Below are positions 12,056 to 54,960 of a stretch of DNA of 64,000 nt, piece by piece; position 1 is the first letter of the stretch, and each line of letters begins with the position of its first letter. The notes under the pieces were generated by a model that saw nothing but the letters and a program-made list of their open reading frames with translations, was not told where the DNA came from and searched no databases. A program made the translations under genes and the position numbers. The DNA is from Clostridia bacterium (GTDB lineage: Bacteria > Bacillota > Clostridia > Christensenellales > Aristaeellaceae): positions 228,603 through 292,602 of the forward strand of contig JAFUFB010000030.1 of the NCBI GenBank assembly GCA_017470145.1, read 5' to 3'.

Positions 12056-12916
12056 TTATTGTTCCATCTTTTCCAGCGCCAGCTCCTGCATGAATCGGCC
12101 CAGGGCATTTTCCACCGTCGGCATGGGCGCCACGCCAGCCTCCCGCAGCTTCTGGGAAGACAGGCGGGAATTCAGCGGCCGATGCGCGGGGGTAGGATAA
12201 TCGCTGGAAGGCACGGGGATTACCCGGCATTTCAGCCCCTGTCCAGCCAGGATCAGCCGGGCAAAATGGGCCCAGGACATGTATCCCTCGTTGGCCACAT
12301 GATAAATGCCAAACTTCTCTGTCGGAATCAGGTCACAGATGACCCGGGCCAGATCCGCCGCATAGGTGGGGGAACCGATCTGATCATCCACCACTCGAAT
12401 TTCGGATTTTTCCGCCCCCAGGCGCAGCATGGTCCGGACAAAGTTCTTGCCATGGATACCATAGACCCAGGAGGTCCGCAGCAGGAAATAGCGCTTCATC
12501 AAGCTGCGAACGGCAATCTCCCCTTGCACCTTGCTGAGGCCATACACGTTCTGCGGATCGTAGGGCGCATCCTCCGTCCAGGGCTCTTCCCCTTTTCCGG
12601 AGAACACATAGTCCGTAGAAATATAGACCATCTTCGCGCCAACGCTGAGGGCGGCTCGCACCATGTTCATGGTGCCATCTCCGTTCACCGCCGCGCAGAC
12701 CTCCGGCTCGCTTTCCGCCTTATCCACGGCGGTATAAGCAGCGCAATGAACCACCACATCCGGCGCATATTCCTGGACGCAGGCCTTCACCGCCGGGCCA
12801 TCCGTCAGGTCAAAATCCTGCACGTCCACGCCCTTGCAGGGCACGCCTCGCTGATTCAGCAGCTGCACCACTTCCCAGCCCAGCTGGCCGTTAACTCCGG
12901 TCACCAGTACCCTCAT
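12056..12916 (-). CDS. rfbD: dTDP-4-dehydrorhamnose reductase
   Basis: A 286-residue short-chain reductase (RmlD) that converts dTDP-4-keto-L-rhamnose to dTDP-L-rhamnose. The NAD(P) motif GVNGQLG is at the N-terminus, STDYVFSG lies in the middle, and the catalytic YGLSK follows, all as in RmlD. The chosen ATG (12916) has GGAGG eight bases upstream; an ATG five codons earlier would put the site inside the gene. rfbA, rfbB and rfbC are not in the window. The product could feed the glycan locus at 36-64 kb. It lies downstream of lysC, separated by three structured repeats. Confidence 0.92.
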   Translation of the reverse strand: MRVLVTGVNGQLGWEVVQLLNQRGVPCKGVDVQDFDLTDGPAVKACVQEYAPDVVVHCAAYTAVDKAESEPEVCAAVNGDGTMNMVRAALSVGAKMVYISTDYVFSGKGEEPWTEDAPYDPQNVYGLSKVQGEIAVRSLMKRYFLLRTSWVYGIHGKNFVRTMLRLGAEKSEIRVVDDQIGSPTYAADLARVICDLIPTEKFGIYHVANEGYMSWAHFARLILAGQGLKCRVIPVPSSDYPTPAHRPLNSRLSSQKLREAGVAPMPTVENALGRFMQELALEKMEQ

Positions 12917-12938
12917 GGGTTTTTCCTCCATTCATTAT

Positions 12939-34895: not shown

Positions 34896-35579
34896 TTACT
34901 TCCCTTCTGTAAAGGGAAACAGCTCTGTGAAGGTATTATAGTGATCTTCCGTATACCAGACCCTGCCCTCCGTGGAAAAAATCACCCGGTAGGCGTTCCG
35001 CTTTCCCTTGGTATAATAGCAGTCCGCCTCGTGATACGTAATTCCCTTCCCCTGGGGCAGCTTGCCCTCATAATTGCCAAAGTAATCCCCGCCGATACTT
35101 TTGCCCGGGGCCACATCGCTGACGTAATTATAGCTGCTGTCCCATCCCAGGGCCTGGGCCTGCTTCTTGGTAATAAAGTTCTCCGGCAGCTGCATGTCGT
35201 GGGAAAACAGATAGTCTGCAATGCTCTGGGGCTCAATGATGGGCCCCTCGGGCTCCGGCGTGGCCGTCGGCCCGGCTGGGGCCGGCGTTGCCGTGGGCTT
35301 GGGGGTCTTGGTGGGTTTGGGCGTCGCTGTCGCCTTTGGGGTAGGCGAAGCCGTCACCCGGGGCGTGGGGGTATTCTTCTTTTTCTTATTGTTTTTCGCC
35401 GACAGCGCGGCTTCCTTCAGGCGCTCCGCCGCTGAACCATCGGCCCCCTGGCGCAGGCTGACGCCCTGAGGTGCCAGCTCCTGTGCGCTCTCCGCCCGAC
35501 CCCAGACCATCCCCAGATCGCCGCCCAGCAGGATCAGCACCAGGGCCAGGGCCAGTAAACCTTTCCAAAGCTTCTTCAT
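34896..35579 (-). CDS. Exported barnase-like guanyl-specific ribonuclease
   Basis: A 227-residue protein. The signal or anchor segment covers about residues 5-28. A Lys/Thr/Pro-rich linker runs over about 62-112. Residues 118-220 closely match barnase: ADYLFSHDMQLPENFITK, then APGKSIGGD, HEAD, RNAYR and EDHYNTF. Catalytic Glu184, Arg198 and His213 are all present, as is Arg194. At the guanine and inhibitor face the usual Arg is Tyr170, with Glu171 kept. It begins 1 base after the rlmH stop, so it is probably coupled. I see no barstar gene in the window. Confidence 0.85.
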   Translation of the reverse strand: MKKLWKGLLALALVLILLGGDLGMVWGRAESAQELAPQGVSLRQGADGSAAERLKEAALSAKNNKKKKNTPTPRVTASPTPKATATPKPTKTPKPTATPAPAGPTATPEPEGPIIEPQSIADYLFSHDMQLPENFITKKQAQALGWDSSYNYVSDVAPGKSIGGDYFGNYEGKLPQGKGITYHEADCYYTKGKRNAYRVIFSTEGRVWYTEDHYNTFTELFPFTEGK

Positions 35580-35580
35580 C

Positions 35581-36060
35581 TTATTTATGATACCTTTCTC
35601 CCGCATTGATCTTTTCCGCCCGATACAGCTGCTCCAGCAGCATGACCCGGGCCAGCTGATGGGGGAAGGTCATCTGGCTCATGCTCATCTCCCCCTCCGC
35701 CCGGCGCAGCACGTTTTCTCCCAGGCCCAGGCTGCCGCCGATGAGGAACACCAGCCGCCCGATGCCCTGGTTCTTCGCCTCCTGCATTTCCCGGGCCAGC
35801 TCCGGGCTGGTTCGTTGCCGGCCGGGAATGGTCAGGGCGATGACCCGGTCTCCCGGGCGGAGCCGCCGGAGCATCTCCTCCCCTTCCCGGGTTTTGATTC
35901 CCTCCTCCTCCGCCAGGGAGGCGCCCTCCCGTTCCGGCAGGTCGGGAATCTCGATTTCCTCGTATCGGCCGAACCGACTGAGCCGTTTCAGGTACTCATC
36001 CGCCATTTGACGGTAGGGCTTTTCCTTCATTTTGCCTACGGCAATAATCGCAATGTGCAT
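35581..36060 (-). CDS. rlmH: 23S rRNA (pseudouridine1915-N3)-methyltransferase
   Basis: A 159-residue SPOUT methyltransferase. The C-terminal knot motifs FLIGGSLGLG, SMSQMTFPHQLARV and LLEQLYRAEKINAG, ending in YHK, are diagnostic of RlmH (YbeA). It modifies helix 69 of 23S rRNA. It lies between a polytopic membrane protein and the barnase-like RNase gene, with only 9 and 1 bases of separation. Confidence 0.95.
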   Translation of the reverse strand: MHIAIIAVGKMKEKPYRQMADEYLKRLSRFGRYEEIEIPDLPEREGASLAEEEGIKTREGEEMLRRLRPGDRVIALTIPGRQRTSPELAREMQEAKNQGIGRLVFLIGGSLGLGENVLRRAEGEMSMSQMTFPHQLARVMLLEQLYRAEKINAGERYHK

Positions 36061-37862: not shown

Positions 37863-39686
37863 TTATCCCCATTGGCCTGTGGAGGCCAGCCAGTAAAGGG
37901 CATAGCTAATATTCACCCAGGCGCAGGTGAGGAACGCCGCCCCGGCCAGGAAACCACCCGCTGCGGCGGAGATCCGCTTCCGCCATTCAAAGGGCGCCAT
38001 CAACGCCACCGCCAGCACGCTCCACAGGGGAATGAAATATCGCGCCTGCATGCCCTGCACCTGGCCCCCCACCGGGGAGGAGACGATGAACTGCGTATAG
38101 ACCAGCACCAGCTCGATGCCGAAGGCCAGGGCCAGGAGCCCGACCCGCCGGCCCGGGGTCAGCAGCTTCGTTCCCCGCCGCTTCTCTCCCCAGGCGCACA
38201 GGGGTGCCACCAGCAGCAGCAACGCCAGGAACAGATCGTTCCATTCTGTGTTATTTCCCAGATAAGCCCAGTGGGAAATGCCCATGGTCATCAGCATGCT
38301 CCGGGATTGCCAGAAATACAACAGCGGCCGCAGCAGCCCCTCCCCCGGATTGGCCAGCATCCAGGCAATCTGCCCGGCTGCGTCCGCCCCAGCGAAGCGT
38401 TCATCCCCGCCCCGGATGGAATCATAGGCCCCGGGCATCACCAAGGCCGCCATGCACCAGCCCAGCACCAGCAGCACATAGCCCCGGAAAATCCAAGCCT
38501 GCTTTTTGCCGCCCCAGCGCTGGGCGGGAATCATCCACAGGCTAAGCAGCATCAGGCTGTATGCCGGCTTCGCCACCGTGCCAAAGGCCAGCAGGGCTAC
38601 CATGGTCAACGCCCGAAGGGGAGAGATTCGATCTTCCTTCTCCACCGATTCCAGCACCAGCGCCAGCCCCAGCAGGATACTCCCCGTGACTACGGTGTCA
38701 TAGGTTCGGCTGGTCATCTGGAACAGAATCGTCGGCAGCGCGCCGGCCACCAGAAAGGTCACCTTATAGCGAGGGGCATGGTGCACCGCCAGGGCCGCCA
38801 AGGCCGCGTATACCAGGCTGCTGCAGAGGATGCAGGCCCGATAGATGATCCCCGCATCCTGGGTGAAAAGCCCCGCCAGGGCGCCGCCCAGGGCCAGGGG
38901 TAAATATCCCGGATACCAGGTAATCCACTGGCTCAGCCAATGCTGCAGAGAGGCCGCGTTCCCGGGCAGCATGGCCGCCACGATCACCTCGTGCACATCC
39001 TCTTCATCCCAGCTGCGCCACACGCTGCCCATATCGATCAAGGGCTTCTTCAGGCTGAGGAGCAGGCCGATCCCGAAGATCAGCAGGAACGTCCCCCAGG
39101 GCAGCCACCGATCCAGCGGATGCTGCCGCCCTTTGTTCGCTCGCACGTCTTGCATCTGCGGCCGGACAGGGGTCAGGGCCAGTAGCAGGAGACCCAGGGC
39201 AAAATACAGCAGCACAGGGTTCCGCCGGGTCACCCGCCCCATCTCCCAGAGCAGGGGGTAGAAATTGCCTTCCTCGTCCGCTTCCCCCTTGACCTTGATG
39301 CTGCCCTCCCCTTCCGCGGAAAGGGCCAGGGTGTAGGTTTGCGTCCCCGTAAAGCTTCCGGAAAGCGTCAGCCCCTCGCTATCCCCCAGATCATCAATCG
39401 CCTGGCGAACAACGGCCACCTCTGCCCCCTGAGCGTCCCGCAGGGTGGCGATCACCGTCATGCCCACCGCCTTCTTGACGCCGGACAGGGTCATCCGCAG
39501 GTCATTCACCCGCTCCATGCCCGGGGTCCACGGCCAGGAGATTTCTCCCGCCGCGGGAATCTCTTCCTTCTTTCGTCCGCTATTGTTGGAAAACTCGCTT
39601 TCCTGCTGAAAGGGCAGGAAAATATAGGCCAGCACCAGGAAGGCCGCCAACCCCACTGCGATTCCTCGGGCTATTCTTGCTCTCAT
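37863..39686 (-). CDS. DUF2142-like polytopic membrane protein
   Basis: A 607-residue protein with an N-terminal transmembrane segment, then an extracytoplasmic beta-sandwich-like domain (about residues 50-140), then about 12 membrane helices. The late motif GGQVQGMQARYFIPL matches the C-terminal hallmark of DUF2142 proteins (V-GVQGRYFIP), which are probable GT-C glycosyltransferases or polymerases in surface glycan loci. The acidic pair SWDEEDVHEV stands where others have GPDE-HF. It shares the N-terminal domain type with the protein at 42.5 kb. Confidence 0.7.
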   Translation of the reverse strand: MRARIARGIAVGLAAFLVLAYIFLPFQQESEFSNNSGRKKEEIPAAGEISWPWTPGMERVNDLRMTLSGVKKAVGMTVIATLRDAQGAEVAVVRQAIDDLGDSEGLTLSGSFTGTQTYTLALSAEGEGSIKVKGEADEEGNFYPLLWEMGRVTRRNPVLLYFALGLLLLALTPVRPQMQDVRANKGRQHPLDRWLPWGTFLLIFGIGLLLSLKKPLIDMGSVWRSWDEEDVHEVIVAAMLPGNAASLQHWLSQWITWYPGYLPLALGGALAGLFTQDAGIIYRACILCSSLVYAALAALAVHHAPRYKVTFLVAGALPTILFQMTSRTYDTVVTGSILLGLALVLESVEKEDRISPLRALTMVALLAFGTVAKPAYSLMLLSLWMIPAQRWGGKKQAWIFRGYVLLVLGWCMAALVMPGAYDSIRGGDERFAGADAAGQIAWMLANPGEGLLRPLLYFWQSRSMLMTMGISHWAYLGNNTEWNDLFLALLLLVAPLCAWGEKRRGTKLLTPGRRVGLLALAFGIELVLVYTQFIVSSPVGGQVQGMQARYFIPLWSVLAVALMAPFEWRKRISAAAGGFLAGAAFLTCAWVNISYALYWLASTGQWG

Positions 39687-42508: not shown

Positions 42509-44557
42509 TCAGATATGGAAGGTCTGCATCAGGATATGGTCAATGGACATCGCATGCAGGAAAACAAGCGTCCAAAGCAATTTCCGATCATCAGCTGCGT
42601 CCCTTCTCTGGATGGATTTTGTTTCCAGCGCCAGGAAAATCACCGGCATCAGCGGGATAAAATATCTGCCTTGGATGCCGAAGACCCGATTCGCGCCTAC
42701 AGGCGTCCAGATCAGCACCTCCACCATTTCCAGCAGCACAATTCCTCCAAAGATGATCAAGAGGAGCATCGCCCTGTTCCAGGGACGACTGCCCAGCTCG
42801 GGCTCGCTGACCTTTTTCTGAGACAGAACCGCCAGCAGGAGAAGATAAGCGACAGGCAGATAAGCGTCAATCCACAGGCTGTATCCGCAGAAGACAAAGC
42901 CCGTGGCTTCCGCCAGCCATTCCAGGAGATTCTCCTCCGCGGAATAGAACAGAATTCGAAGAATATGGATCGGATCCCGCAGGATGGCCTCCAGGGTATA
43001 TACATCCGAGCCGCTCTTCAGTACCGCCGAACCGCTTCTGGCTGAGGGAATCCAGAAAGCTGCCAGGATCACCGCCATCGTCAGGATCATTCCCCCGATG
43101 GAAAGGGTCTTATTCCATCGTACGAATCTCTTCTTCGGAATCAGCAGCAGCAGTCCCGCCAGGATGATATAAACAACCTTGGAGGGAGCCATTACCGCGC
43201 CCACCAGGATCAGGGATAGATATTCCTTTTTCTCCACGGGCGTCTCCCGCCAGATGGCGCGTAGCGCCAAAGCTGTCCACAAAAGGGCCAGACCATTGGT
43301 AAATGCGTCGTAGGAATAGGACGCAGCCTGATGAATGGCCATAGGCAGCAATCCAATTCCGAAAAACAGCTCCTTTTTTCTCGGCACGATTCGCACTGCC
43401 AAATAAACACAGAGCGCGTAAAACAGCAGGTTGAAAAGTCGGCCCAAATAATATAGCCAAAGTGGATTCACCCGCAGGAGCCTTCCCACCGCCAAGCCCA
43501 TCGCCTGGGGGAGGAACATCAAGGGATAGGAAAAGGAGGTAGGAACCCAGTTGATCTTGGTCTCGTCCGTCCCCCGCGCTTCAAACAGCCTTTGAACAAT
43601 CTGCGCGTACTTCGTTGGCGAATTAAAATTCGCCTCCCACTGGCCATCCACGTCGAATTCCAACGCGCTTCCCTCCGCCTTGTTTGGCTGAAAAAGAAGG
43701 TAATTGGAAACCCCATAGGAATCATCGAAATGGGAGGACTCATCCGGGCCCGCGTTGGGGGTGATGGCAAACATGAAAAGAATTCCTAACATGATTGCTC
43801 CGATGGCCGCCTTCTTTTCCAGGGGCAAATCCGTGCCAAACAGCAGCTTTCCCATAACCGTCAGGTAGATCCAGGCGCCATAGTGCAGGCACCAAGCAAA
43901 AACAACAGCCTCGTCTAAGGAATATGCCTGGGGGATTCCCAACGTCTGCACAAACCACAGGGTGAAGAGGAAAAACAAGACGCCGACCAGCAGGAAACGC
44001 CCCACCCGTCCCCCGCTCTTCCGCCGGGCGGGAAGCGGAAGAATTGAAAGCAAGCCAAAGCCAATCGCCAGATACAGCAGCGTGCCGTATCTGTTCAGGG
44101 TCTTCTTTGCCCAATTCATGGAAGGCTTGAACCCATCCTCCTCCTCTGTTCCTCTCAGTTTGATGCTCCCCTCCCCACTGGCACTCAAGCTGATTCGGTA
44201 AATGGTCCCGGCATCAAAGAGGCCCTGAATGGTCCAGTCGCCCTCCTCGTTCAATTCAGAAATGACTGTAGTCGCAGAAAGAATCTCCTCCCCCGCCAGT
44301 GATTCCATCACCAGCTTCAGCCCCAGCTCCGGCGCGTTTTTTGCCCCATGCGCCCGAAGGGTAAATTCGCTGGTCCCCTCCTCCTCCGGGGCCCATTCCC
44401 AGCTCACGCTTTCTCCGGCGGCCAGCTCATATTTAGCCCGGCCATCATAAATGGAGCCATAGATATAGTTTTCTTCCCCCGTGGGCACGGCAAAGAAAAG
44501 GATTAACAATACCATCGCGGCCAAGCCTGCGGCGCAGCGAAGCATCCACTCTTTCAT
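42509..44557 (-). CDS. DUF2142 membrane protein, probable GT-C glycosyltransferase
   Basis: A 682-residue protein. The order is one N-terminal helix, an extracytoplasmic beta-rich domain (about 40-155), then about 12 helices. NAGPDESSHFDDSYG is the classic DUF2142 acidic loop and GANRVFGIQGRYFIPL its C-terminal motif. It is the first gene of the minus block and diverges from the glycosyltransferase operon across a 321-bp gap. It probably moves a sugar from a polyprenyl-phosphate carrier on the outer face of the membrane. Confidence 0.75.
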   Translation of the reverse strand: MKEWMLRCAAGLAAMVLLILFFAVPTGEENYIYGSIYDGRAKYELAAGESVSWEWAPEEEGTSEFTLRAHGAKNAPELGLKLVMESLAGEEILSATTVISELNEEGDWTIQGLFDAGTIYRISLSASGEGSIKLRGTEEEDGFKPSMNWAKKTLNRYGTLLYLAIGFGLLSILPLPARRKSGGRVGRFLLVGVLFFLFTLWFVQTLGIPQAYSLDEAVVFAWCLHYGAWIYLTVMGKLLFGTDLPLEKKAAIGAIMLGILFMFAITPNAGPDESSHFDDSYGVSNYLLFQPNKAEGSALEFDVDGQWEANFNSPTKYAQIVQRLFEARGTDETKINWVPTSFSYPLMFLPQAMGLAVGRLLRVNPLWLYYLGRLFNLLFYALCVYLAVRIVPRKKELFFGIGLLPMAIHQAASYSYDAFTNGLALLWTALALRAIWRETPVEKKEYLSLILVGAVMAPSKVVYIILAGLLLLIPKKRFVRWNKTLSIGGMILTMAVILAAFWIPSARSGSAVLKSGSDVYTLEAILRDPIHILRILFYSAEENLLEWLAEATGFVFCGYSLWIDAYLPVAYLLLLAVLSQKKVSEPELGSRPWNRAMLLLIIFGGIVLLEMVEVLIWTPVGANRVFGIQGRYFIPLMPVIFLALETKSIQRRDAADDRKLLWTLVFLHAMSIDHILMQTFHI

Positions 44558-44878: not shown

Positions 44879-45865
44879 ATGCCAGCAGTTACAACCAAGA
44901 GTCCATCGGTTCTCGACGCCGGCGGTGCCAAGAAAAGGATGTCCATTGTCACCCCGTGTTACTTCAACGAAAAGAACCTGGACGACACCTATGCCGAAAT
45001 CAAGGCCACCGTGTTTGATCTCCTGCCGGAATACGATTGGGAATGGATCCTGGTGGACGATGGCTCTGGGGATAACACCTTGGGGGTGGCCCAGCGGCTG
45101 CAGCGGCAGGATCCGCGAATTCGCATCGTTAAGCTCTCCCGCAATTTCGGCGAATTTCGTGCAGTGGTGGCGGGGCTCTCCGTCGCCCGGGGGGAGGCCA
45201 TTGCCGTCATCTGTGCCGATCTGCAGGATCCTCCCTCTCTGATTCCCCATTTGGTGGCCTCCTGGCAGCAGGGGAACAAGGTCAATTTGGCTGTGCGCGG
45301 CGGCCGGGAAGGCTCCCGGCTGAAAAATTGGTTTGCGGATACCTATTATCGGCTGATTCGCAAATGGGTCATTCCGGATTATCCGGAACGGGGCTTCGAC
45401 TTTTTCCTCATAGACCGGAAAGTAGCGCAGGAGCTGGTGCGCATGCAGGAAAAGAACTCCAGCATCTATCTGCAACTGATCTGGCTGGGCTATCGGCCCA
45501 CCATCATTGAATATGATCAAAAGGATCGGGAAAAGGGCGTATCCATGTGGACCTATTCCAAGCGCATCAATCTGTTTGTGGATACCTTCATCGTCTTTTC
45601 CCATAAGCCCATTCGCTTCCTGACAGGCGCCGGGCTGCTGGTGGGGCTCATTTCCCTGATCTTCGGAGTTTATGTCATCTTCGATAAAATCATCAACCAT
45701 ACTCCCGCAGGCTGGGCCTCTGTCATGCTGGCGGTGCTGCTAACCTCCAGCTTCCAAATGGTGATGATGGGCGTACTGGGGGAATATCTGTGGCGCAATC
45801 TGGATGAAACTCGAAAACGCCCGCTATACGTCATTGATGAAGTAATGGACGGGCAGGAAGAGTGA
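44879..45865 (+). CDS. GtrB/DPM1-like polyprenyl-phosphate glycosyltransferase
   Basis: A 328-residue GT2 enzyme with a GT-A domain and two C-terminal membrane helices (about 240-262 and 275-305). SIVTPCYFNEKN, WILVDDGSGDNT and the metal site CADLQDPP are typical of enzymes that load a sugar on undecaprenyl-phosphate at the cytoplasmic face. Its product would serve the GT-C proteins around it. AGGGG precedes ATG 44879; an ATG at 44939 is a possible alternative. It heads the plus operon, 9 bases before the 2,3-dehydratase. Confidence 0.85.
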   Translation: MPAVTTKSPSVLDAGGAKKRMSIVTPCYFNEKNLDDTYAEIKATVFDLLPEYDWEWILVDDGSGDNTLGVAQRLQRQDPRIRIVKLSRNFGEFRAVVAGLSVARGEAIAVICADLQDPPSLIPHLVASWQQGNKVNLAVRGGREGSRLKNWFADTYYRLIRKWVIPDYPERGFDFFLIDRKVAQELVRMQEKNSSIYLQLIWLGYRPTIIEYDQKDREKGVSMWTYSKRINLFVDTFIVFSHKPIRFLTGAGLLVGLISLIFGVYVIFDKIINHTPAGWASVMLAVLLTSSFQMVMMGVLGEYLWRNLDETRKRPLYVIDEVMDGQEE

Positions 45866-45874
45866 GGCGAGCCG

Positions 45875-47302
45875 ATGGAAGCAAGAACAGGCATAGGTCG
45901 ATGGATTCAAGGCTTTGAGGGCATCGCTGAAATCGCGGCGCAGGAAACGCCGCTGCACTCCTTCTCCGAGATTCTCGCCTGGCTGGAGGACCGCAAGAAA
46001 AATCAGCATATCCAGATCAATCAAATTCCCCTGGAAGCCTGTCAGCCCTGGTACTACGATCATTCCGAGGGCGTCATCCGAAATCCCGAGGGCAGCTTTT
46101 TCCGCATCGGCGGCATGGTCTCCCGGGATCTGGGAGGAAACGAGCAGTCCCAGCCCATCATTCTGCAACCTGAAATTGGCTATCTGGGCATCGTATGCCG
46201 AAAGTTCGGCGGGGTATGGCATTTTTTGATGCAGGCTAAAATCGAGCCGGGGAACATCAATTATGTTCAGATTTCCCCCACCCTTCAAGCCACGAAGAGC
46301 AACTTTACCCGCCGCCATGGCGGCAAAGAGCCGCCCTATCTTTCCTTGTTCCAGCACATGCGCCGGGAGGATATCCTGGTGGATCAAATCCAGTCGGAAC
46401 AATCCTCCCGATTCTGGGGGAAGCGGAATCGAAATGTGATCATCAAAACGGAAGAGGATGTGCCGGAGCTGCCCTCCCACCGATGGATGACCCTGGATCA
46501 AATTCGGGCATGCATGCGGCGGGATAATCTAGTCAATATGGATACCCGGACGGTGCTCAGTTGCCTTCCCTATGTGTTCATGATGGACAGCGTCGGCGGA
46601 TATGCTACCCCCTTTGCGAGCTCCATGCGCGCCATTCGCCATGAAGATATGACTGAAATCTATCTGCGAATGAACAATTATAAGATGTTCCACGCCCCGG
46701 AGCGTCATCTGGTTCCCCTGCTCTCCCTGCCGGATTGGTCCTTTGCGGAGGGAGCCTTCCGTCGTCGGCAAGGATACCCCTTTCAGCTGATTTTCTGTCA
46801 ACTGAACATCGAGGGGCGGGAGGTCACCCGGTGGAATCAGCCCTTATTTGCGGCCCTGGGGCAAGCCACCTTCGGCCTGATCTGCCGGGTTCGGGAAGCC
46901 CAATATGAAGCGCTGGTCCGCGTAAAGCCAGAGATGGGCTGCTTCGACGGGGCGGAGCTGGGGCCCTCCGTGCAGGAGGAGCCCGGTCAGGCGCATTGCC
47001 GGGACAGTGTTGCTAAATATTTCTTCGATCAGTTGGCTAAAAAGGATGGTGTTTTAACGGACGTGGCCCTCTCGGAGGAGGGCGGCCGGTTCTATCACGA
47101 GCAGAATCGAAATGTGATTCTGCTTTCAAGGGCAGAAATCGAATTCGACCCGGATCAATATGTTTGGGTCACCCTGGGTACGCTGAACGCCATGACCCAG
47201 ATCAATAACTGCCTGAATATTCAGCTGCGAAATCTATTGATGCTGCTGGCCATGCAATCCATGACAAGGGAGGAAAGGAAAACAGATGATACCGATCAAT
47301 GA
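45875..47302 (+). CDS. NDP-hexose 2,3-dehydratase (EvaA/TylX3/SpcT family)
   Basis: A 475-residue protein formed by two related halves. The first (about 60-215) carries LQPEIGYLGIV, QAKIEPGN and QISPTLQAT, the family fingerprint. The second (about 285-460) repeats the fold with the degenerate VKPEMGCF, LGPSVQ. Each half ends with an RNVI-L strand. EvaA-type enzymes remove water across C2-C3 of dTDP-4-keto-6-deoxyglucose, giving a 2,6-dideoxy-3,4-diketo sugar, mostly known from antibiotic glycosylation in actinomycetes. It overlaps the aminotransferase gene by 17 bases, indicating coupled translation and a shared pathway. Confidence 0.88.
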   Translation: MEARTGIGRWIQGFEGIAEIAAQETPLHSFSEILAWLEDRKKNQHIQINQIPLEACQPWYYDHSEGVIRNPEGSFFRIGGMVSRDLGGNEQSQPIILQPEIGYLGIVCRKFGGVWHFLMQAKIEPGNINYVQISPTLQATKSNFTRRHGGKEPPYLSLFQHMRREDILVDQIQSEQSSRFWGKRNRNVIIKTEEDVPELPSHRWMTLDQIRACMRRDNLVNMDTRTVLSCLPYVFMMDSVGGYATPFASSMRAIRHEDMTEIYLRMNNYKMFHAPERHLVPLLSLPDWSFAEGAFRRRQGYPFQLIFCQLNIEGREVTRWNQPLFAALGQATFGLICRVREAQYEALVRVKPEMGCFDGAELGPSVQEEPGQAHCRDSVAKYFFDQLAKKDGVLTDVALSEEGGRFYHEQNRNVILLSRAEIEFDPDQYVWVTLGTLNAMTQINNCLNIQLRNLLMLLAMQSMTREERKTDDTDQ

Positions 47303-48389
47303 TCTGAGCCGAGGCTTCCGGCTGTATCAGCAAGAATACGAGGCCAAGGCCCTGGAGGTGCTGCGCAGCGGCTGGTATGTGCTGGGAAAAGAGGTCTCCA
47401 GCTTCGAGGAGGAATTCGCCGCTGCCCTGGGGGAGGGCTGCTACTGCGCAGGCGTGGATAATGGGCTGGACGCTATCCTGGTTGGTCTCATGGCCGCGGG
47501 CATTCAGCCCGAGGATGAAATCATCGTGCAGGCCAACGGATACATCGCCACCATGCTGGGGATTATGCAATGCGGCGCCGTGCCCGTGTTCGTGGAGCCG
47601 GACGAATATTATCAGCTGGACGCCGCCAACATTGAAGCCGCGATTACGGAAAAAACCAAGGCGGTGCTGGTGACGCATCTGTACGGTTTAGCCACCAGAA
47701 TGGATCCCATTCTGGAAATCTGCCAGCGGCGGGGGCTCCTGCTGTTTGAGGACTGCGCCCAATCCCATTTTGCCCCCTGGCAAGGCGTCTATACCGGTCT
47801 TTTGGGTGACGCCTCCTTTTTCAGCTTCTATCCCACCAAAAATCTGGGGGGCTTCGGCGATGGCGGCGGGGTGGTATCCCGCAAAAAAGAAATCATCGAC
47901 CGGGTGAAAGTGATCCGGAACTATGGCAGCGATTATCGCTATCATAACATCGAAATCGGATATAATGACCGGCTGGATGAGTTGCAGGCGGGGCTGCTGC
48001 GGGTCAAACTGAAGCATATGCCCGCGCTGCTGGCCAATCGGGATCACATTGCCCAGCGCTATCTGAGGGAAATCAACAATCCGCTGGTGGAGCTACCGAA
48101 GACCCCAGCGGGGTGCAAACACACCTGGTATCAATTCACCGTCCGGGTAGCGAACCAGGCCGGCTTCCGGGAATTCCTGAAGGAGCGGGGCGTAGGTACG
48201 GATATCGCCTGGAAAACACCGCCCTATCTGCAGCCCTGCATGGTAGAAAAATTTGGCTACCGTCGAGGGGATTTCCCAAAGACGGAAGCCATCTGTGACA
48301 CCATCGTCTCCCTGCCCATGATGGATTTCATGGAAGAGGAAGAAATCAGCAAAGTGATCCAGGAGGTAAATTGCTATGCAGGGCTGTGA
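47286..48389 (+). CDS. Sugar aminotransferase (DegT/DnrJ/EryC1/StrS family)
   Basis: A 367-residue PLP enzyme. The Schiff-base Lys185 is in FYPTKNLGGFGD and the cofactor Asp156 in LFEDCAQSH. The N-terminal VLRSGWYVLG and the length agree with FdtB/QdtB/TylB-type 3-keto-sugar aminotransferases, a good match with the 3,4-ketoisomerase that follows. It would aminate C3 of a dTDP-3-keto-6-deoxy sugar with glutamate as donor. AGGAAAGG lies upstream. It overlaps the dehydratase by 17 bases and the isomerase by 14. Confidence 0.88.
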   Translation: MIPINDLSRGFRLYQQEYEAKALEVLRSGWYVLGKEVSSFEEEFAAALGEGCYCAGVDNGLDAILVGLMAAGIQPEDEIIVQANGYIATMLGIMQCGAVPVFVEPDEYYQLDAANIEAAITEKTKAVLVTHLYGLATRMDPILEICQRRGLLLFEDCAQSHFAPWQGVYTGLLGDASFFSFYPTKNLGGFGDGGGVVSRKKEIIDRVKVIRNYGSDYRYHNIEIGYNDRLDELQAGLLRVKLKHMPALLANRDHIAQRYLREINNPLVELPKTPAGCKHTWYQFTVRVANQAGFREFLKERGVGTDIAWKTPPYLQPCMVEKFGYRRGDFPKTEAICDTIVSLPMMDFMEEEEISKVIQEVNCYAGL

Positions 48390-48798
48390 ACTCATTTCCA
48401 TTAAGCAGAACGTGGAGGCGGATGGAACCCTCTTCGTCATGGAGCATGGGCGAGAGGTTCCCTTTCCCATCCAGCGGATCTTTTTTGTTTCCCGGGTCGC
48501 TCCGGGCGCCAGCCGGGGAGACCATGCCACCAAGGAGACGCGGCTCATCCTCTTTCCTGTAGCCGGGGAATGCGATGTAGTGGTGGATAATGGAACAGAG
48601 CAGGAAACCTATCACATGGACGATCCCGCCCAGGGATTGATGATCGCCCCCATGATCTGGCGCAGCATGCGGCATTTCACGCCGGATTGCGTCATGATGG
48701 CGGTCTGCGACCGGCCCTTTGCCCCCGGCAACGAAACCTACGATGATTATTCCGCCTATCTGCAGGCATTGAACGAAAAAGGGGTTGCAACTAGATGA
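48376..48798 (+). CDS. FdtA/QdtA-like dTDP-sugar 3,4-ketoisomerase (cupin)
   Basis: A 140-residue cupin. PFPIQRIFFV, RGDHATKE, the central G-C-VVVDNG, then GLMIAPMIWRSM and FTPDCVMMAV align along the whole length with FdtA/QdtA, which move the keto group from C4 to C3 of dTDP-4-keto-6-deoxyglucose. In the family the active site holds an H-x-H pair; here it is His50-Ala-Thr52, so one His is lost. That could alter rate or the face of protonation. GGAGG is ten bases before the ATG. Overlaps: 14 bases with the aminotransferase, 4 with the oxidoreductase. Confidence 0.85.
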   Translation: MQGCELISIKQNVEADGTLFVMEHGREVPFPIQRIFFVSRVAPGASRGDHATKETRLILFPVAGECDVVVDNGTEQETYHMDDPAQGLMIAPMIWRSMRHFTPDCVMMAVCDRPFAPGNETYDDYSAYLQALNEKGVATR

Positions 48799-49826
48799 TT
48801 CGTATTGGCATCGTTGGCACAGCCAGCATCGCCCAACGGCGAATGATTCCCGCGATTCTGAAGCATCCCGCGTTCCAGTACGCGGGGGCGTCCATCGCCA
48901 CCCAGCAGGAGACAGGCTTCTCCGGCACAGCCAAGGAGTTTGCGCCTCTCTGGGCCAAAAAGCAGGAAAAGGCCGCCGAGCTATCCGCCTGTTTCGGTGG
49001 ACGTACCTGGGAAAGCTATCGCGCCTTGCTACAGGATCCGGCCGTGGACGCGGTGTATGTCGCTCTGCCCCCTGCCCTGCATAAACGCTGGATTCGCGAA
49101 GCCATTCTGCAGGGAAAGCACGTGTTGGCGGAAAAGCCTTTCACAACCCGTGCTCAGGATGCCCAGGAGCTGATCGCCCTGGCCCGGGAACACCAGGTCG
49201 CCCTGGTGGAAAACTACGGCTTTCCCCTGCATCATCAGATGCGACACATTCAGGAATGGATCCAGGCAGGGGCCATCGGCGATATCCGGCTCGTGCGCGC
49301 TACCTTTGGCTTCCCACACCGGGACGCGACGGACTTTCGGTATCAAAAGGCCCTGGGGGGCGGCGCGCTGCTGGATTGCGGAGGATATACTCTGAAGGCG
49401 GCCACAGAGATGCTGGGCGGGCCGCTGGAGGTGCTTTCCGCTGAAGCCCTTTTTCTGCCCGAGCATGAGGTAGACATGGCGGGCACCGTCACGCTGCGCA
49501 GCCCCACTGGCCGTTGCGCTCAGCTGGCCTACGGTATGGATCATGCCTATCGATGCGAGCTGGAGGTCTGGGGAAATCAGGGCTTGATTACCGCCCCCCG
49601 CATCTTTACCGCGCCGGACGGCTTCGAAGCCCCGGTCTATTTGACGCAGGGCCAACATACGGAGGAATACAAAGCCAGCGATGATCAATTCCTCCGGATC
49701 GTGGAAAAATTCGCGGACTGCATCGCCTCCCCGGAGGCCCGGGAACGGTCATGGGCAGAAATCCGCACCCAAAGCCTCCTGACGGAACAGGTTCGAGTGA
49801 TGGCTCAAATTAAAGGAAAAGACTGA
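48795..49826 (+). CDS. Gfo/Idh/MocA oxidoreductase, probable NDP-sugar 3-ketoreductase
   Basis: A 343-residue NAD(P)-dependent enzyme. The N-terminal GIVGTASIAQR Rossmann motif is followed by AEKPFTT with the conserved Lys near 113, then GGGALLDCGGY typical of the family. The KijD10/TylC1-type 3-ketoreductases that act after EvaA-type dehydratases belong to this superfamily, and the four-gene overlap (ATGA with the isomerase) supports that role. An insert of about 20 residues (TQQETGFSG to WAKK) follows the first strand. Exact stereochemistry cannot be predicted. Confidence 0.8.
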   Translation: MIRIGIVGTASIAQRRMIPAILKHPAFQYAGASIATQQETGFSGTAKEFAPLWAKKQEKAAELSACFGGRTWESYRALLQDPAVDAVYVALPPALHKRWIREAILQGKHVLAEKPFTTRAQDAQELIALAREHQVALVENYGFPLHHQMRHIQEWIQAGAIGDIRLVRATFGFPHRDATDFRYQKALGGGALLDCGGYTLKAATEMLGGPLEVLSAEALFLPEHEVDMAGTVTLRSPTGRCAQLAYGMDHAYRCELEVWGNQGLITAPRIFTAPDGFEAPVYLTQGQHTEEYKASDDQFLRIVEKFADCIASPEARERSWAEIRTQSLLTEQVRVMAQIKGKD

Positions 49827-49969
49827 TGAAAGCTTCCCTGCAGGGCAGGGGCCGGAATCATTCTCGTAGATGAGCATTTCTGAAGGGCATGGGATCGGTT
49901 TCTCCTGCAAAGGGATGGTACCCTCCCGATCGTATGCAATCAAGCAGTGACAGATGAGGTGAAAGTATT

Positions 49970-51559
49970 TTGAAAAACAAGCGCGGAACAGGTCAGTCCC
50001 CTTGGAAACTGAACACCCTGCTATATGGGCTGTGGCTGCTTTTGGTTTTGGGAACCGGCGCTTACGCCAGCCATTATGACGCACCGTTGCATCAGCTGAC
50101 CGGGCGGCTTTGGATGGCTCTGGCGGCGGCTGGCCTGCTTGCTCCGCTGGTGCTGAAATGGGTGCGGAACTGGACACCCCGGCGTCATCGCCTGGGGCAG
50201 CATCTATCCCCCTGGGCCTTTCGCTGCATCTGCTTCGGATGCAGCCTGCTGGTTTTAGGCTTTTGCTTTCTAGCGGTCAATCCTGGCGGCTTTGACGGCG
50301 ATCCCGGGGTGCAGCTGCGACAGGCTGTCACCGGCGCCTATGACGATTATTACCCCGTGCTTCATACCCTGATCGCCTTTAAGCTGCCGTTGATGCTGAC
50401 GGGGGGATGGTTCCCTTCCATCATGCTGTTTCAAATTCTGCTCTTCTCCCTAGCGCTGACTTGGGTTTGCGACACCGTCCGCCTCTGGGCAAATCCCTTC
50501 TGGGCCTTTCTCAGCCTGGCAGTCATCCTGCTGAACCCTATTACCCAATCTTATTTGATGTATGGCTACAAGGATGAGACCTTCGGCATCTGCGCCATGA
50601 CGCTGGTGTGCATGAACGCGCGGATTCTGTTTTCCAAGGGCGACTGGCTGAAAAAGCCGGTGCATCTGGCGGCATTTGCTCTCCTGCTGGCGGCAACCTC
50701 CCTGGTTCGTTATAATGGCATCCTGTTTGCTCTCCCCTGCCTGGCCGGCGCCGCACTGTGCGTGAATTGGAAGCGTGCCCTGGCTGCCGGCGGAGCGGCT
50801 CTGCTGCTGATCCTAGGAGTCCGAGGCCCCCTGTCCTCCGCCATAGGCGTCACCAAGACGGAGGACAGGAGCAGCCAAACCATGGGGCTGCCCATGGCTG
50901 TCATCGGCGGCGCTTATACCTACCGCGGGGAAAAGCTGGATGAAGACTTGACCACCTTTGTGGAAAGCGTGGCTCCCCGGGAGGTTTGGGAAGAAAAATA
51001 TACCTACGGCGTCTATAACTGGGTGGATTGGGACCCCCGGAGCAATCACCAGGCCCTGGCAGACGCCGGGTTCGGCGGTGCGCTGAAGTACATGCTACGC
51101 GCCTTTCGAGAAGCGCCCAAGGAAAGCCTGAACGCGCTGATTGAAACCACGGACATCGTGTACGGCATCCGGCCGGATCACCTGGCGGATGGGGCAGTAT
51201 ATGTCTCTGGAGCGGACATGGGCCTGCGGGATCAGGGCATCCCATGGATGAAAAATCTGATGTATGAATATCGGCGCATCATGTATATCCTGGCACCCCA
51301 TTGCTATCTTCACAGCGGAGTTACCCTGCTTCTGCTCGTGACCGCGGCCCTGGGAAGATGGAAGCTACAGCGCAAGGAAAGCTGGCTTCGGATTATCCCT
51401 GTATTATCCGTGTTCGCCTACAACCTGGTGACCATGCTGATGCTCTTCTCCTGGTGGGACGGCGCGCGGTTCTTCCATTATTCCCTGTGGGTAGCGCCAG
51501 TGCTGCTGGTCATGCTGCTGCGCCGGGAAGAGGGGGATACCGCAGCGGTTGGACCATAG
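49970..51559 (+). CDS. Polytopic membrane protein (DUF6020-like)
   Basis: A 529-residue protein with about 11 helices. After the third helix comes VNPGGFDGDPGVQLRQAVTG followed by HTL, resembling the Asn-Pro-Gly...Asp...Gln motif of DUF6020 and other GT-C-like proteins. A long outside loop (about 290-425) separates the last helices. The start is TTG 49970 with GAGGTGA upstream, 143 bases after the oxidoreductase. It may transfer or polymerise polyprenyl-linked sugars. Confidence 0.6.
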   Translation: MKNKRGTGQSPWKLNTLLYGLWLLLVLGTGAYASHYDAPLHQLTGRLWMALAAAGLLAPLVLKWVRNWTPRRHRLGQHLSPWAFRCICFGCSLLVLGFCFLAVNPGGFDGDPGVQLRQAVTGAYDDYYPVLHTLIAFKLPLMLTGGWFPSIMLFQILLFSLALTWVCDTVRLWANPFWAFLSLAVILLNPITQSYLMYGYKDETFGICAMTLVCMNARILFSKGDWLKKPVHLAAFALLLAATSLVRYNGILFALPCLAGAALCVNWKRALAAGGAALLLILGVRGPLSSAIGVTKTEDRSSQTMGLPMAVIGGAYTYRGEKLDEDLTTFVESVAPREVWEEKYTYGVYNWVDWDPRSNHQALADAGFGGALKYMLRAFREAPKESLNALIETTDIVYGIRPDHLADGAVYVSGADMGLRDQGIPWMKNLMYEYRRIMYILAPHCYLHSGVTLLLLVTAALGRWKLQRKESWLRIIPVLSVFAYNLVTMLMLFSWWDGARFFHYSLWVAPVLLVMLLRREEGDTAAVGP

Positions 51560-51638
51560 AAGGGGCCGTTTCATTCCACCCACGCCAAAGAATGAACCCT
51601 CTCCCAAGAGAGGATAACGAAGAGGAGCCTGGACCGCC

Positions 51639-53282
51639 ATGACACATCCCATCAATAACAATCGTCCCCTCAAATCACAGAAGCAAGGCCCTGCCTCCCT
51701 CCGGGGGATCGGTGCCCTGCTTGTCATCCTGTTTTTTTGTCAACTGGCGGTGCTTTGCTACTTTAATCTGACTCAATTGCGGAATCATATGGGTTACGAT
51801 TCCTCCTGGAATTATCTGCGGGCCGCACTGATGTGGCGGGAGAAGGCGCTGACCAGTCCTATCTGGGGAGAGCTTTCGAATCTGAACCTGGATACCCACC
51901 TGATCCTGATCTCTCTGCTTTATGGTATCACCGGGGACCTGCTGCTCTCCTATGGTCTGGGAAATATCGCCATTGTCCTCCTGCTGCTGTGGGTGCTATG
52001 GGAAATTCTGGGGCGGATGAAGGTTCGCTTTCACGCCCGGATGATCAGCCTGAATCTGATGATCTGCCCCTACCTTTCCTCGGGCTTCTATCTGTTTAAT
52101 GATCTGGGCTACTTCAGCAACGTCCTCTCCGGCGCGTCCTTTTACAGCCTGCGCATGCTGATTGCCCTGATGGTCATGTATGAATTTCTGAAGATCATTC
52201 AGGATCAAAAATTCGGTTGGCTGGTCTGGATCATTTGGCCCCTGTGCGTGCTCAGCGGTTATTCCAGTGGCGTGTATCTCATTGTGGTGCTGCTGGCCCC
52301 CTACCTGGCATATGAGCTGGAAATGGCCGCGATCCAGAACAGCTGGAAGCAGCTGATTCGGAAGGAAAGCGTTTTCGCCTATCTTTGCTGCCTGGCGGTG
52401 CTGGTGGGGAAGCTGTTCGGCTTCAACGCGCTGGACAATACCTTCACCTGGACCTCCCTCCAGGATCTATGGACCAATTTCGGCGCGGTGATTCAGGGCT
52501 TTATGAAGCTGATGCAAGCCCTGCCGGTATTGGCGGATGACAAGCCACTCATGTCCATCGCCGGGCTGGCACGGGTCTTTATCCTGGTGATTTTCGCCCT
52601 GATGGCCGTTTCCATCGGCTTCCTGCTCCGGCGAGTAGGCAAGGAGTGGAAGCACAGCCGGGCTCTCCTGTTTTTTGTCAATCTCCTGCTGGTCAATTTC
52701 CTCATCTTCGGACTGTTTAACGCGCAATATGGCACCGAAATTTTTGAGGAAAGATACCTGCTGGTGGCCTTCTTCGCCGCCATTATTCTGACCGCCTTGT
52801 TCTTCAACGAATTGGACCCCCAGCGAATCCTTTCCCTGATGCTGTCCCTGGCCATGACCGGCGCCCTGCTGATGGTGGATATCCAGTCCGATTATAACTA
52901 TCTGCGAACCACCAACGACGTATGGCCCCTGGCGGAAATTCAGTCCCTGGCTGAGGAATACGACGCGGGCATTGTATATTGCTGGGGCTATGATCTGAAC
53001 GTTATTCGTCGGGTCATGCGGGCCTGCGACTTAAACCGGGTGTATAAGGAGATCCCGGATGAGGGCGGATATTACACCCATTGGGATGATTATTATTATT
53101 TCGACACCAACGCGGAATATACCGGCCCTACCTTGCTGCTCTGCCCTGCTGATCAGCAACTGGTGCCGGAGGAAACCCTGGCAAAATTTACCTGGGTGGG
53201 CAAGCTGGAATACAGCTTGTTTGACCAGCCCAGGCAGATCGACGTATATACCAGCGATCATAATCCCACCCTGTGGGATTAG
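51639..53282 (+). CDS. Polytopic membrane protein of the glycan locus, function unknown
   Basis: A 547-residue protein with about 12 helices. The first loop reads LTQLRNHMGYDSSWNYLRA, and a roughly 130-residue C-terminal extracytoplasmic part includes ADQQLVPEE and IDVYTS. This is the layout of GT39/GT-C transferases, but no signature is decisive. It is last in the plus operon, and its end faces the end of the minus operon with 10 bases between. Confidence 0.55.
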   Translation: MTHPINNNRPLKSQKQGPASLRGIGALLVILFFCQLAVLCYFNLTQLRNHMGYDSSWNYLRAALMWREKALTSPIWGELSNLNLDTHLILISLLYGITGDLLLSYGLGNIAIVLLLLWVLWEILGRMKVRFHARMISLNLMICPYLSSGFYLFNDLGYFSNVLSGASFYSLRMLIALMVMYEFLKIIQDQKFGWLVWIIWPLCVLSGYSSGVYLIVVLLAPYLAYELEMAAIQNSWKQLIRKESVFAYLCCLAVLVGKLFGFNALDNTFTWTSLQDLWTNFGAVIQGFMKLMQALPVLADDKPLMSIAGLARVFILVIFALMAVSIGFLLRRVGKEWKHSRALLFFVNLLLVNFLIFGLFNAQYGTEIFEERYLLVAFFAAIILTALFFNELDPQRILSLMLSLAMTGALLMVDIQSDYNYLRTTNDVWPLAEIQSLAEEYDAGIVYCWGYDLNVIRRVMRACDLNRVYKEIPDEGGYYTHWDDYYYFDTNAEYTGPTLLLCPADQQLVPEETLAKFTWVGKLEYSLFDQPRQIDVYTSDHNPTLWD

Positions 53283-53292
53283 GCGTTCTATT

Positions 53293-54960
53293 TCATTTTT
53301 CCGGTACTGGTCGGCGGATCGACTTCATCGCCATCCAAATCAATAACGGGGCGCAAACCATCAACGGATAGACATATCGGGGGAGAATTCCGGGGCCTAA
53401 GGCAATCGTCCCCACCAGACATAACAAAAACAGCGGAAGCCACAACCATTTCCGGTGCTTGCCCTGCAGCAGGATACCAATCACCAGCAGCAGCAAGTAC
53501 ACATAGCTAGCTGGTGCAAAAATGGAACGGAGCAGCGGAATCTTTAAGAACGCATTTTCCGTCAAAATCTTTTCCAAAAACGCTTCCAGGGCGGGAAACT
53601 TGCTTTCCAACCTCATCGGGTACCAGGACTTGATATCCGTCATCAAATACCCCTGCCGATCCCCGGTGCCATAGATTTGTGTGTGGGATATATCCCGTAT
53701 ATTCCACAGTCCCTCCGTCGTATACAGCAGGGAATCGATGCTAATGGCCGGATATTTGGTGAAGAGACGGAAGCTGCCCTGCAAATAACGCACCAGATCC
53801 TCCCGGGTTTCCAGGCGCAGACAGGCCTTCATGGGGTCTGCCAGATGCGGATCATAGTTGATTTCGTTCATGCTGTAAAAATCATCCAGGAGGATACCTG
53901 TTTCAGCGTCCAGGTTGCTGACTTCCTCCTGCACTCTGCCCGCCATCTGGCTGGGCACGCTGCACATCTCTGCCAGCAGGGCCGGCGATGCATGCAGCGC
54001 CTTCCCCAGTCCCCAATCCGCGCCCATCCCCAGCAGGGTTCCCGCCAACAGCGCCGCCAGCATCCGACGGCCTGTTTTCTTTTTGATCTGGAACAGGCAT
54101 AAAAGAATCAGCAGCGCGAGCCCATACCGGGCATTGTTTCGAAGCATGACCACCAAGGCAATCACCGCCACCTCCGCCATCATCAGCCACTTCCGCCGGG
54201 GCGGATTTACCTCCATCATCCGGAGAAAAATCAGCCCGGATAGAAGAATCAGCGCGGAAAACAGCGTATCCTTCGTGGTGCTCATGGCCAGAATGGGATG
54301 CACGGGGAAAAGAGCAAAAAACAGCAGGGTCAACCAATAAAACACATTGCTTCTCGCCCGCTGTCGCAGAAAAGCGCAGCAGCAGGCATAGATCAGCGCG
54401 CAGATACCGCCCTGAATGGCGCTGTACAGCAGGGGAGCCCATTGAGGGTGCCCCTTTTCCAGCGCAAAGCGATAGCAGTTTCCCAACAGCAGGGTGTGCA
54501 GCAGCGGGTGGTGCTTGCTGTAAACCCCTGTGATCACCTGATCCGCCTGCCAGGGGTCATAGTTCCAGAACCCGGGATAGTACGCCAGCCACACGGGCAG
54601 CCAGCAGAGCAGCAGCACTCCCAGGGAGAAAAGAAAACAGCGGACAAAGGATCCCCGCAGGAATCCCTGCTCCTGGATTTGTTCCCGCTGGTTGCTTTCC
54701 ATTTTAGTCCATTTCCCTAAGCCCCTGCAGAGCAAACGCAGCAGCCTTCTGACGAGCTCTGTCAGCGCCAAAGAGCCAGCGATCCATCCCAGCAGCTGCA
54801 GCCCCGTCATATGCGCAAAGGAATAACCTCTGTCGAAGAATGCACCCAACAGGGTAGCGGCAGAAAAGATGAAAGCCAGGGAATACTCCATCCATGGCTC
54901 CAGGATCTCATTGGGATCCCGAAAACAGCCCCTCCAGCCATTGACCTTTGCCTTTGCCAT
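53293..54960 (-). CDS. Polytopic membrane protein (DUF6020-like)
   Basis: A 555-residue protein with about 12 helices. WLAYYPGFWNYDPWQADQV followed by HHPLLHTLL is the same YPG...D...Q...HP-HT pattern as in the protein at 50.0 kb, with a further TTKDTLFSA motif that is conserved in this group. GGAGG precedes the ATG. It is the last gene of the minus operon, downstream of the thiolase. Probable GT-C-type activity. Confidence 0.65.
   Translation of the reverse strand: MAKAKVNGWRGCFRDPNEILEPWMEYSLAFIFSAATLLGAFFDRGYSFAHMTGLQLLGWIAGSLALTELVRRLLRLLCRGLGKWTKMESNQREQIQEQGFLRGSFVRCFLFSLGVLLLCWLPVWLAYYPGFWNYDPWQADQVITGVYSKHHPLLHTLLLGNCYRFALEKGHPQWAPLLYSAIQGGICALIYACCCAFLRQRARSNVFYWLTLLFFALFPVHPILAMSTTKDTLFSALILLSGLIFLRMMEVNPPRRKWLMMAEVAVIALVVMLRNNARYGLALLILLCLFQIKKKTGRRMLAALLAGTLLGMGADWGLGKALHASPALLAEMCSVPSQMAGRVQEEVSNLDAETGILLDDFYSMNEINYDPHLADPMKACLRLETREDLVRYLQGSFRLFTKYPAISIDSLLYTTEGLWNIRDISHTQIYGTGDRQGYLMTDIKSWYPMRLESKFPALEAFLEKILTENAFLKIPLLRSIFAPASYVYLLLLVIGILLQGKHRKWLWLPLFLLCLVGTIALGPGILPRYVYPLMVCAPLLIWMAMKSIRRPVPEK

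Follow-up and report, generated by a model that had tools for sequence, protein, structure and literature searches.

Gene layout and enzyme families

We analyzed a 64,000-nucleotide stretch (the window) of contig JAFUFB010000030.1 from a Clostridia bacterium, whose source genome is 2.4 Mb and 83.7% complete, and focused on a candidate aminodeoxysugar unit of four genes. All four lie on the plus strand between 45875 and 49826, begin with ATG, and overlap by exactly 17, 14, and 4 bases, as an earlier annotation of the same DNA (the sequence-only reading) had described. The enzyme families that it had named likewise agree with our Pfam assignments and with the closest solved relatives. The first gene (45875-47302; 475 residues) encodes a nucleoside diphosphate (NDP)-hexose 2,3-dehydratase with two tandem PF03559 domains (389.8 bits), for which the closest solved relative is EvaA (278.9 bits). 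The second (47286-48389; 367 residues) encodes a DegT-family sugar 3-aminotransferase (PF01041, 309.6 bits) that is closest to QdtB (308.7 bits) and retains the pyridoxal phosphate-binding lysine (aligned FYPTK), though its active-site loop is divergent. The third product is a cupin of the FdtA family (48376-48798; 140 residues; PF05523, 113.8 bits), with FdtA (chain 2pak, a mutant) as its closest solved relative at 78.0 bits, and the fourth is a Gfo/Idh/MocA ketoreductase (48795-49826; 343 residues; PF01408, 84.3 bits, and PF22725, 80.3 bits) of the KijD10 group (205.2 bits), for which reduction at either C3 or C4 can be considered.

Conservation and spread of the unit

A profile scan for the dehydratase over the genome contigs gave ten loci. 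Two of these, L027 (a Clostridia metagenome-assembled genome (MAG) from roe deer omasum) and L028, share one gene order, which runs from a family 2 glycosyltransferase (GT2) through the dehydratase, aminotransferase, cupin, and reductase to a downstream membrane-protein gene. Two others, L029 and L030 from Solobacterium, have the dehydratase, aminotransferase, and cupin genes (hereafter the trio) with no adjacent reductase, and the remaining six all have a KijD10-like gene and none has the trio. The trio is thus conserved in five genomes, in three of which the reductase stands beside it. An artefact or chance arrangement was set aside, because other genomes show the same gene order and overlaps, and the view of the genes as one unit holds.

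The trio dehydratases form a single clade (support 100/100), with identities to that of the window of 96% (L027), 73% (L028), and 60% (L029 and L030). All five retain equivalents of EvaA E139 and E190, the pocket A glutamate pair (QAK-x-EPG and IQSEQ), which are described as catalytic residues in the accessible text of PMC8987622. Because the L028-L030 aminotransferases are 85-86% identical to that of the window while the dehydratases are 60-73% identical, across both Clostridia and Erysipelotrichaceae, transfer of the unit is suggested.

A dehydratase match was obtained in 6 of the 45 genomes of the genus, and three of these have the trio (the window's own, G1358, and G1385; the last two are apparently L027 and L028 and were counted once); the other three genus dehydratases sit on contigs of 3.8-9.8 kb. 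Across the class, PF03559 was found in 9 of 391 sampled genomes, with many of the loci read adjoining a KijD10-like gene and some near a GtrB-like gene, and this makes it doubtful that such chemistries are known chiefly from antibiotic clusters, as had been claimed. No trio was seen in the stretches read from the other eight of these genomes; several of the dehydratases there are at the end of a contig (L039, L045-L048), and a short contig of G360 was read in part.

In Solobacterium, the trio (L029:7998-10883; L030) lies between genes of housekeeping type (the bordering one rbfA-like by eye) and two WXG100-type genes, one of which is above the Pfam cut-off in L029; an FtsK/SpoIIIE-type ATPase is encoded with the latter. 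No glycosyltransferase was recognized around it within the stretch read at either locus. In other cassettes, the aminotransferase joined to the 2,3-dehydratase is a more distant DegT member (L146 and L147, from the same genus as the window, and L032, L036, and L041). The L147 aminotransferase is of the dTDP-4-amino-4,6-dideoxygalactose transaminase type (dTDP, deoxythymidine diphosphate; 399.9 bits to 6blg) and groups with that of L146, which suggests 4-amino-2,4,6-trideoxysugars.

Active-site and motif residues of the cupin, aminotransferase, and reductase

We compared the trio cupins with other FdtA rows at two active-site His residues that are changed in FdtA chains of the PDB and at the paired Tyr positions of a strand. 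Window His50 aligns with the His changed in chain 2pae, and a His is found at this site in 35 of 35 other rows (34 of them distinct, as L049 and L080 are one gene). The second FdtA His, changed in chain 2pak, is Thr in all five trio genomes, so that the motif reads DHAT in place of HAH or HAN. Of the 35 non-trio rows, 25 have His and 10 have Asn there, and all 16 rows counted from a second set of 17 non-trio loci have one or the other (L132, outside the motif filter, was left out). Moreover, the paired Tyr positions of the R-x-[YF]-x strand are FF or FM in the trio cupins, though at least one Tyr is found in every row of both other sets (35/35 and 16/16). Taken together, all 51 other FdtA rows combine His or Asn with a Tyr, and the trio cupins depart at both sites. 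The trio cupins also have Asp for Arg in the D-x-R-G motif, but since Asp occurs there in other FdtA rows too, this change was not counted. Because of the two departures, the name 3,4-ketoisomerase proposed for the third gene is kept as a family label only; membership of PF05523 and one His speak for it, and the missing second His and Tyr against it.

Decay of the cupin was considered and set aside, as the trio cupins are 64-99% identical to that of the window with many invariant positions, which argues for selection. Scans with a threshold of more than 270 bits against the trio profile covered 398 genomes of the phylum, 396 of the order, and 195 of the Solobacterium family. Each gave a single genome with a trio-type cupin, the window's own in the first two sets and G393 in the third, and all other matches reached at most 98.1 bits. 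In all five genomes, the DHAT-type cupin is accompanied by a 2,3-dehydratase. A second, ordinary FdtA with the HAH motif is encoded elsewhere in the window's genome (G000 contig C15:25549-25932; L049:10543-12054), where it lies beside an aminotransferase that is 41% identical to that of the window, and these two look like a standard 3-amino-3,6-dideoxysugar pair. A further FdtA subgroup (L116, L117, L119, and L125-L131) has HAN for HAH and FY for YY, and the aminotransferases adjoining its members at L116, L117, and L119 are the nearest relatives of the trio aminotransferase.

In a tree of 22 aminotransferase rows, the trio enzyme nests within the FdtA-linked group (99/98 with L116, L117, and L119) and lies apart from the actinobacterial and Serratia enzymes that are linked to a dehydratase but not to FdtA. 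At certain motif positions, however, it differs from its FdtA-linked relatives (aligned stretches under 150 residues were excluded from this comparison). Asp58 (VDNG) is found in all three trio rows and in 7 of 7 dehydratase-type rows, these being five dehydratase-linked enzymes and two further clade members that have no annotated dehydratase in the nearest 5 kb or so, but in none of the 11 FdtA-linked rows. Position 308 is Ala or Ser in the three trio rows and Ser in the seven dehydratase-type rows, versus His (10) or Tyr (one) in the FdtA-linked rows, and the IHYPxPxH loop of the latter is replaced in the trio by DIAWKTPPY or DISWKTPPY. Likewise, position 282 is Tyr in the trio and dehydratase-type rows and His in 10 of the 11 FdtA-linked rows. 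We view Asp58 and the missing IHYP His as hints of a possible direct amination at C3, as proposed for rhodosamine.

For the reductase, the Lys (AEKP) and Tyr (GGY) that are changed in KijD10 chains 3rcb and 3rc7 are both retained, and we take these to be the catalytic residues. In the tree, those of the window, L027, and L028 group as a single clade (96/100) within the dehydratase-linked Clostridia reductases, and they have VENYGF or TENYGF where the other aligned Clostridia sequences have HENYMF. Whole-genome searches with the window reductase gave 777.7 bits in its own genome, 748.3 bits in G391, and 432.5 bits in G392. In the two Solobacterium genomes, no close homologue was found, the best matches reaching 45.7 and 50.5 bits and covering roughly half of the protein at 29-30% identity. 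In both, the trio is bordered by other genes on either side, though MAG incompleteness may still account for the absence. Since the trio occurs in both genomes with no adjacent or close reductase homologue, an order that begins with C3 reduction is not required. A Solobacterium short-chain dehydrogenase/reductase (SDR) encoded beside a GT2 copy was considered as the C4 reductase and set aside, as it is a relative of uridine diphosphate (UDP)-glucuronate decarboxylase (411 bits); with this SDR as query, the best match was only 28% identical in all four other genomes.

Proposed pathway, alternatives, and destination of the sugar

Anthracyclines and other antibiotics are a familiar source of 3-amino-2,3,6-trideoxyhexoses. 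According to the accessible text of PMC10054333, the route proposed for the rhodosamine and daunosamine of aclacinomycin uses the dehydratase AknN, the 3-aminotransferase AknZ, which acts on the 3,4-diketo-2,6-dideoxy product, the epimerase AknL, and the reductase AknM, with the amination giving a 3-amino-4-keto-2,3,6-trideoxyhexose before C4 reduction. For the angolosamine of kidamycin, the corresponding text of PMC9452638 lists a 2,3-dehydratase, a 3-aminotransferase, a 4-ketoreductase, and an N-methyltransferase. No isomerase is named for either proposed route in these texts, and our expectation of one in angolosamine biosynthesis was not borne out by the accessible portions of PMC4644662 and PMC9452638. 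The window unit resembles both routes in joining a 2,3-dehydratase and a 3-aminotransferase with a presumed later reduction. In contrast, those genes belong to antibiotic clusters that also encode a 3,5-epimerase and a C4 reductase from other families, whereas the window unit has a Gfo/Idh reductase and a cupin of the FdtA family, and is adjoined by a gene for a lipid-carrier glycosyltransferase. With FdtA/FdtB and QdtA/QdtB, which make 3-amino-3,6-dideoxy sugars, the unit has in common a cupin gene next to a DegT aminotransferase gene, both from those families, but differs by the residues that these two have lost and by its added 2,3-dehydratase. As in the EvaA/KijD10-type modules for 2,6-dideoxysugars, the dehydratase and Gfo/Idh reductase retain their catalytic residues, though here an aminotransferase and a cupin come between them and the reductase has its VENYGF or TENYGF variant. 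Plasmid clusters of Streptomyces and Kitasatospora also combine a dehydratase and an aminotransferase with rfbC and an epimerase/dehydratase-family or Gfo/Idh gene; no FdtA is annotated in these stretches, and the 30 records matched by the window cupin include none of these clusters.

From these families and residues, a 3-amino-2,3,6-trideoxyhexose is the likely product class, in agreement with the sequence-only reading. The full scheme that we favor, to which we give slightly less than an even chance, is that the unit makes the dTDP form of this sugar for a surface glycan. RmlB, encoded on another contig, would supply dTDP-4-keto-6-deoxyglucose, from which the dehydratase would remove the C2 hydroxyl to give dTDP-3,4-diketo-2,6-dideoxyhexose. 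The aminotransferase would then aminate C3 of this product directly, and C4 would be reduced by the Gfo/Idh protein in the window and by some other reductase in Solobacterium. It had been stated that the unit is without a C4 reductase; indeed no SDR-type gene is present, though C4 could be reduced by the Gfo/Idh protein. The cupin would enolize one of the keto sugars, an epimerase or tautomerase role being likelier than standard 3,4-ketoisomerization. Lastly, the GT2 would place the sugar on undecaprenyl phosphate, from which an adjacent membrane protein would transfer it to an outer glycan.

The glycan setting suggested earlier is supported. The GT2 (44879..45865, plus strand; PF00535) ends 9 bases before the dehydratase gene. 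It is closest to the polyprenyl-phosphate glycosyltransferase GtrB sll0501 (188 bits over residues 17-322 of 328) and then to ArnC (115 bits). This gene adjoins the unit in all three Clostridia trio loci, and a 76% identical copy is convergent with an aminotransferase-FdtA pair in G1070, a genome of the same genus with no dehydratase match. Downstream on the plus strand are genes for two proteins judged hydrophobic by eye, one at 49970..51559 (with a counterpart in L027 but none in L028), a candidate extracytoplasmic glycosyltransferase, and the other at 51639..53282 (retained in L027 at 97% and L028 at 58-59% identity; no solved relative found), a candidate extracytoplasmic glycosyltransferase that would be the partner of the GT2. 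A GtrB-like GT2 beside genes for hydrophobic proteins is reminiscent of the three-component GtrB/ArnC glycan modification systems, though neither downstream protein matches a Pfam family. In a Pfam scan of the genes at 44879-53282, no acetyltransferase or formyltransferase family was seen, and so the amine of the sugar may be left free and perhaps cationic.

Several observations weigh against our scheme. The trio cupin retains one active-site His and a W-R pair that is common among other FdtA rows, and because of this it could still act as an isomerase. In the aminotransferase, QdtB also has Tyr at position 282, and where the trio enzyme departs from its four nearest relatives, it matches the dehydratase-linked group in 6 of 34 comparable columns, which is not clearly above the background given by four other groups (7/55, 5/50, 13/83, and 7/83). 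A general convergence on dehydratase-type enzymes was therefore dropped, and the case for direct amination comes down to two motif positions, Asp58 and the missing His308. KijD10 was deposited as a sugar 3-ketoreductase rather than one for C4, and C3 and C4 reduction are not told apart by the residues of the window enzyme. RmlB is above the cut-off in four of the five trio genomes but not in G394. Finally, in both Solobacterium genomes the closest copy of the GT2 (66%) is found away from the trio, next to a gene for a UDP-glucuronate decarboxylase relative, and thus the GT2 donor may be another sugar. Set against this, the adjacency in Clostridia and G1070 makes the sugar of the unit a likely, if tentative, donor. 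The Solobacterium loci themselves (L165:4058-7613 and L166:7161-10687) have the GtrB-like gene divergent from the decarboxylase-like gene, followed by that of a DUF6056 membrane protein, and possibly represent a lipid-linked xylose system.

The sequence-only reading had arrived at the same product class by another order, that is, 2,3-dehydration, a KijD10-like C3 reduction, a 4-to-3 keto shift by the cupin, and then C3 amination. That all four families occur in one unit with no separate C4 reductase is in its favor, as are the retained KijD10 Lys and Tyr, the remaining FdtA His, and the nesting of the aminotransferase in the FdtA-linked group. Even so, we regard this order as doubtful, though not disproved, and quite unlikely overall, because the cupin appears to have lost parts of the usual active site. 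The aminotransferase also lacks the IHYP His of the FdtA-linked enzymes, the trio of both Solobacterium genomes occurs with no close reductase homologue, and the accessible texts on the aclacinomycin and kidamycin routes name no isomerase. Direct amination is tentatively preferred over this order.

Less probable again is that the four genes serve two sugars, with the dehydratase and reductase making a 2,6-dideoxyhexose and the cupin and aminotransferase a 3-amino-3,6-dideoxyhexose. One Streptomyces plasmid does carry FdtA, an aminotransferase, RfbA/B/C, a dehydratase, and a Gfo/Idh gene together with a macrolide-family glycosyltransferase, and dehydratase-reductase pairs with no QdtB-like aminotransferase recur in Clostridia. 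However, Solobacterium retains the trio without the reductase, the aminotransferase and cupin diverge from their FdtA-linked counterparts precisely in the dehydratase-linked lineage, and an ordinary FdtA-aminotransferase pair is already encoded on another contig of the window's genome. We give marginally less weight still to a 4-amino-2,4,6-trideoxyhexose, made by dehydration, C3 reduction, and C4 amination with the cupin as an accessory. The same-genus dehydratases that adjoin C4-type transaminases (L147 and L146) are consistent with such a product, but the trio aminotransferase groups with the FdtA-linked, QdtB-like enzymes and apart from the C4 types.

The cupin is the part of the unit most worth testing. 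A further proposal, which we judge somewhat unlikely, is that the third gene encodes a repurposed FdtA/QdtA member that no longer isomerizes, and instead epimerizes or tautomerizes a 2-deoxy-3,4-diketo or 3-amino-4-keto nucleotide sugar, in place of the RmlC-type 3,5-epimerases of antibiotic 3-amino-2,3,6-trideoxysugar clusters. If so, the unit would represent an FdtA-derived pathway, assembled independently, by which gut Bacillota make an antibiotic-type amino sugar for their surface. More broadly, our scheme would mean that a rare, perhaps cationic sugar is added to the envelope of commensal gut Bacillota, and among the papers listed by searches of titles and abstract openings (10 of 13 in one of them), with most subscription journals outside their reach, none describes a 3-amino-2,3,6-trideoxyhexose for Clostridia glycans. 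The unit also offers a small set of enzymes that is open to direct assay, among them a cupin of probably changed function.

As for the surroundings, a scan for promoters and terminators (10 sites versus 6.1 expected, and 14 versus 9.0) was set aside and not used as evidence. DUF2142 and DUF6020 membrane proteins are encoded on the opposite strand on both sides of the unit (42509-44557, 37863-39686, and 53293-54960, minus strand). A protein with a PF00545 ribonuclease domain is encoded near the glycan region (34896-35606, minus strand), and one with an RmlD domain at 12056-12931.

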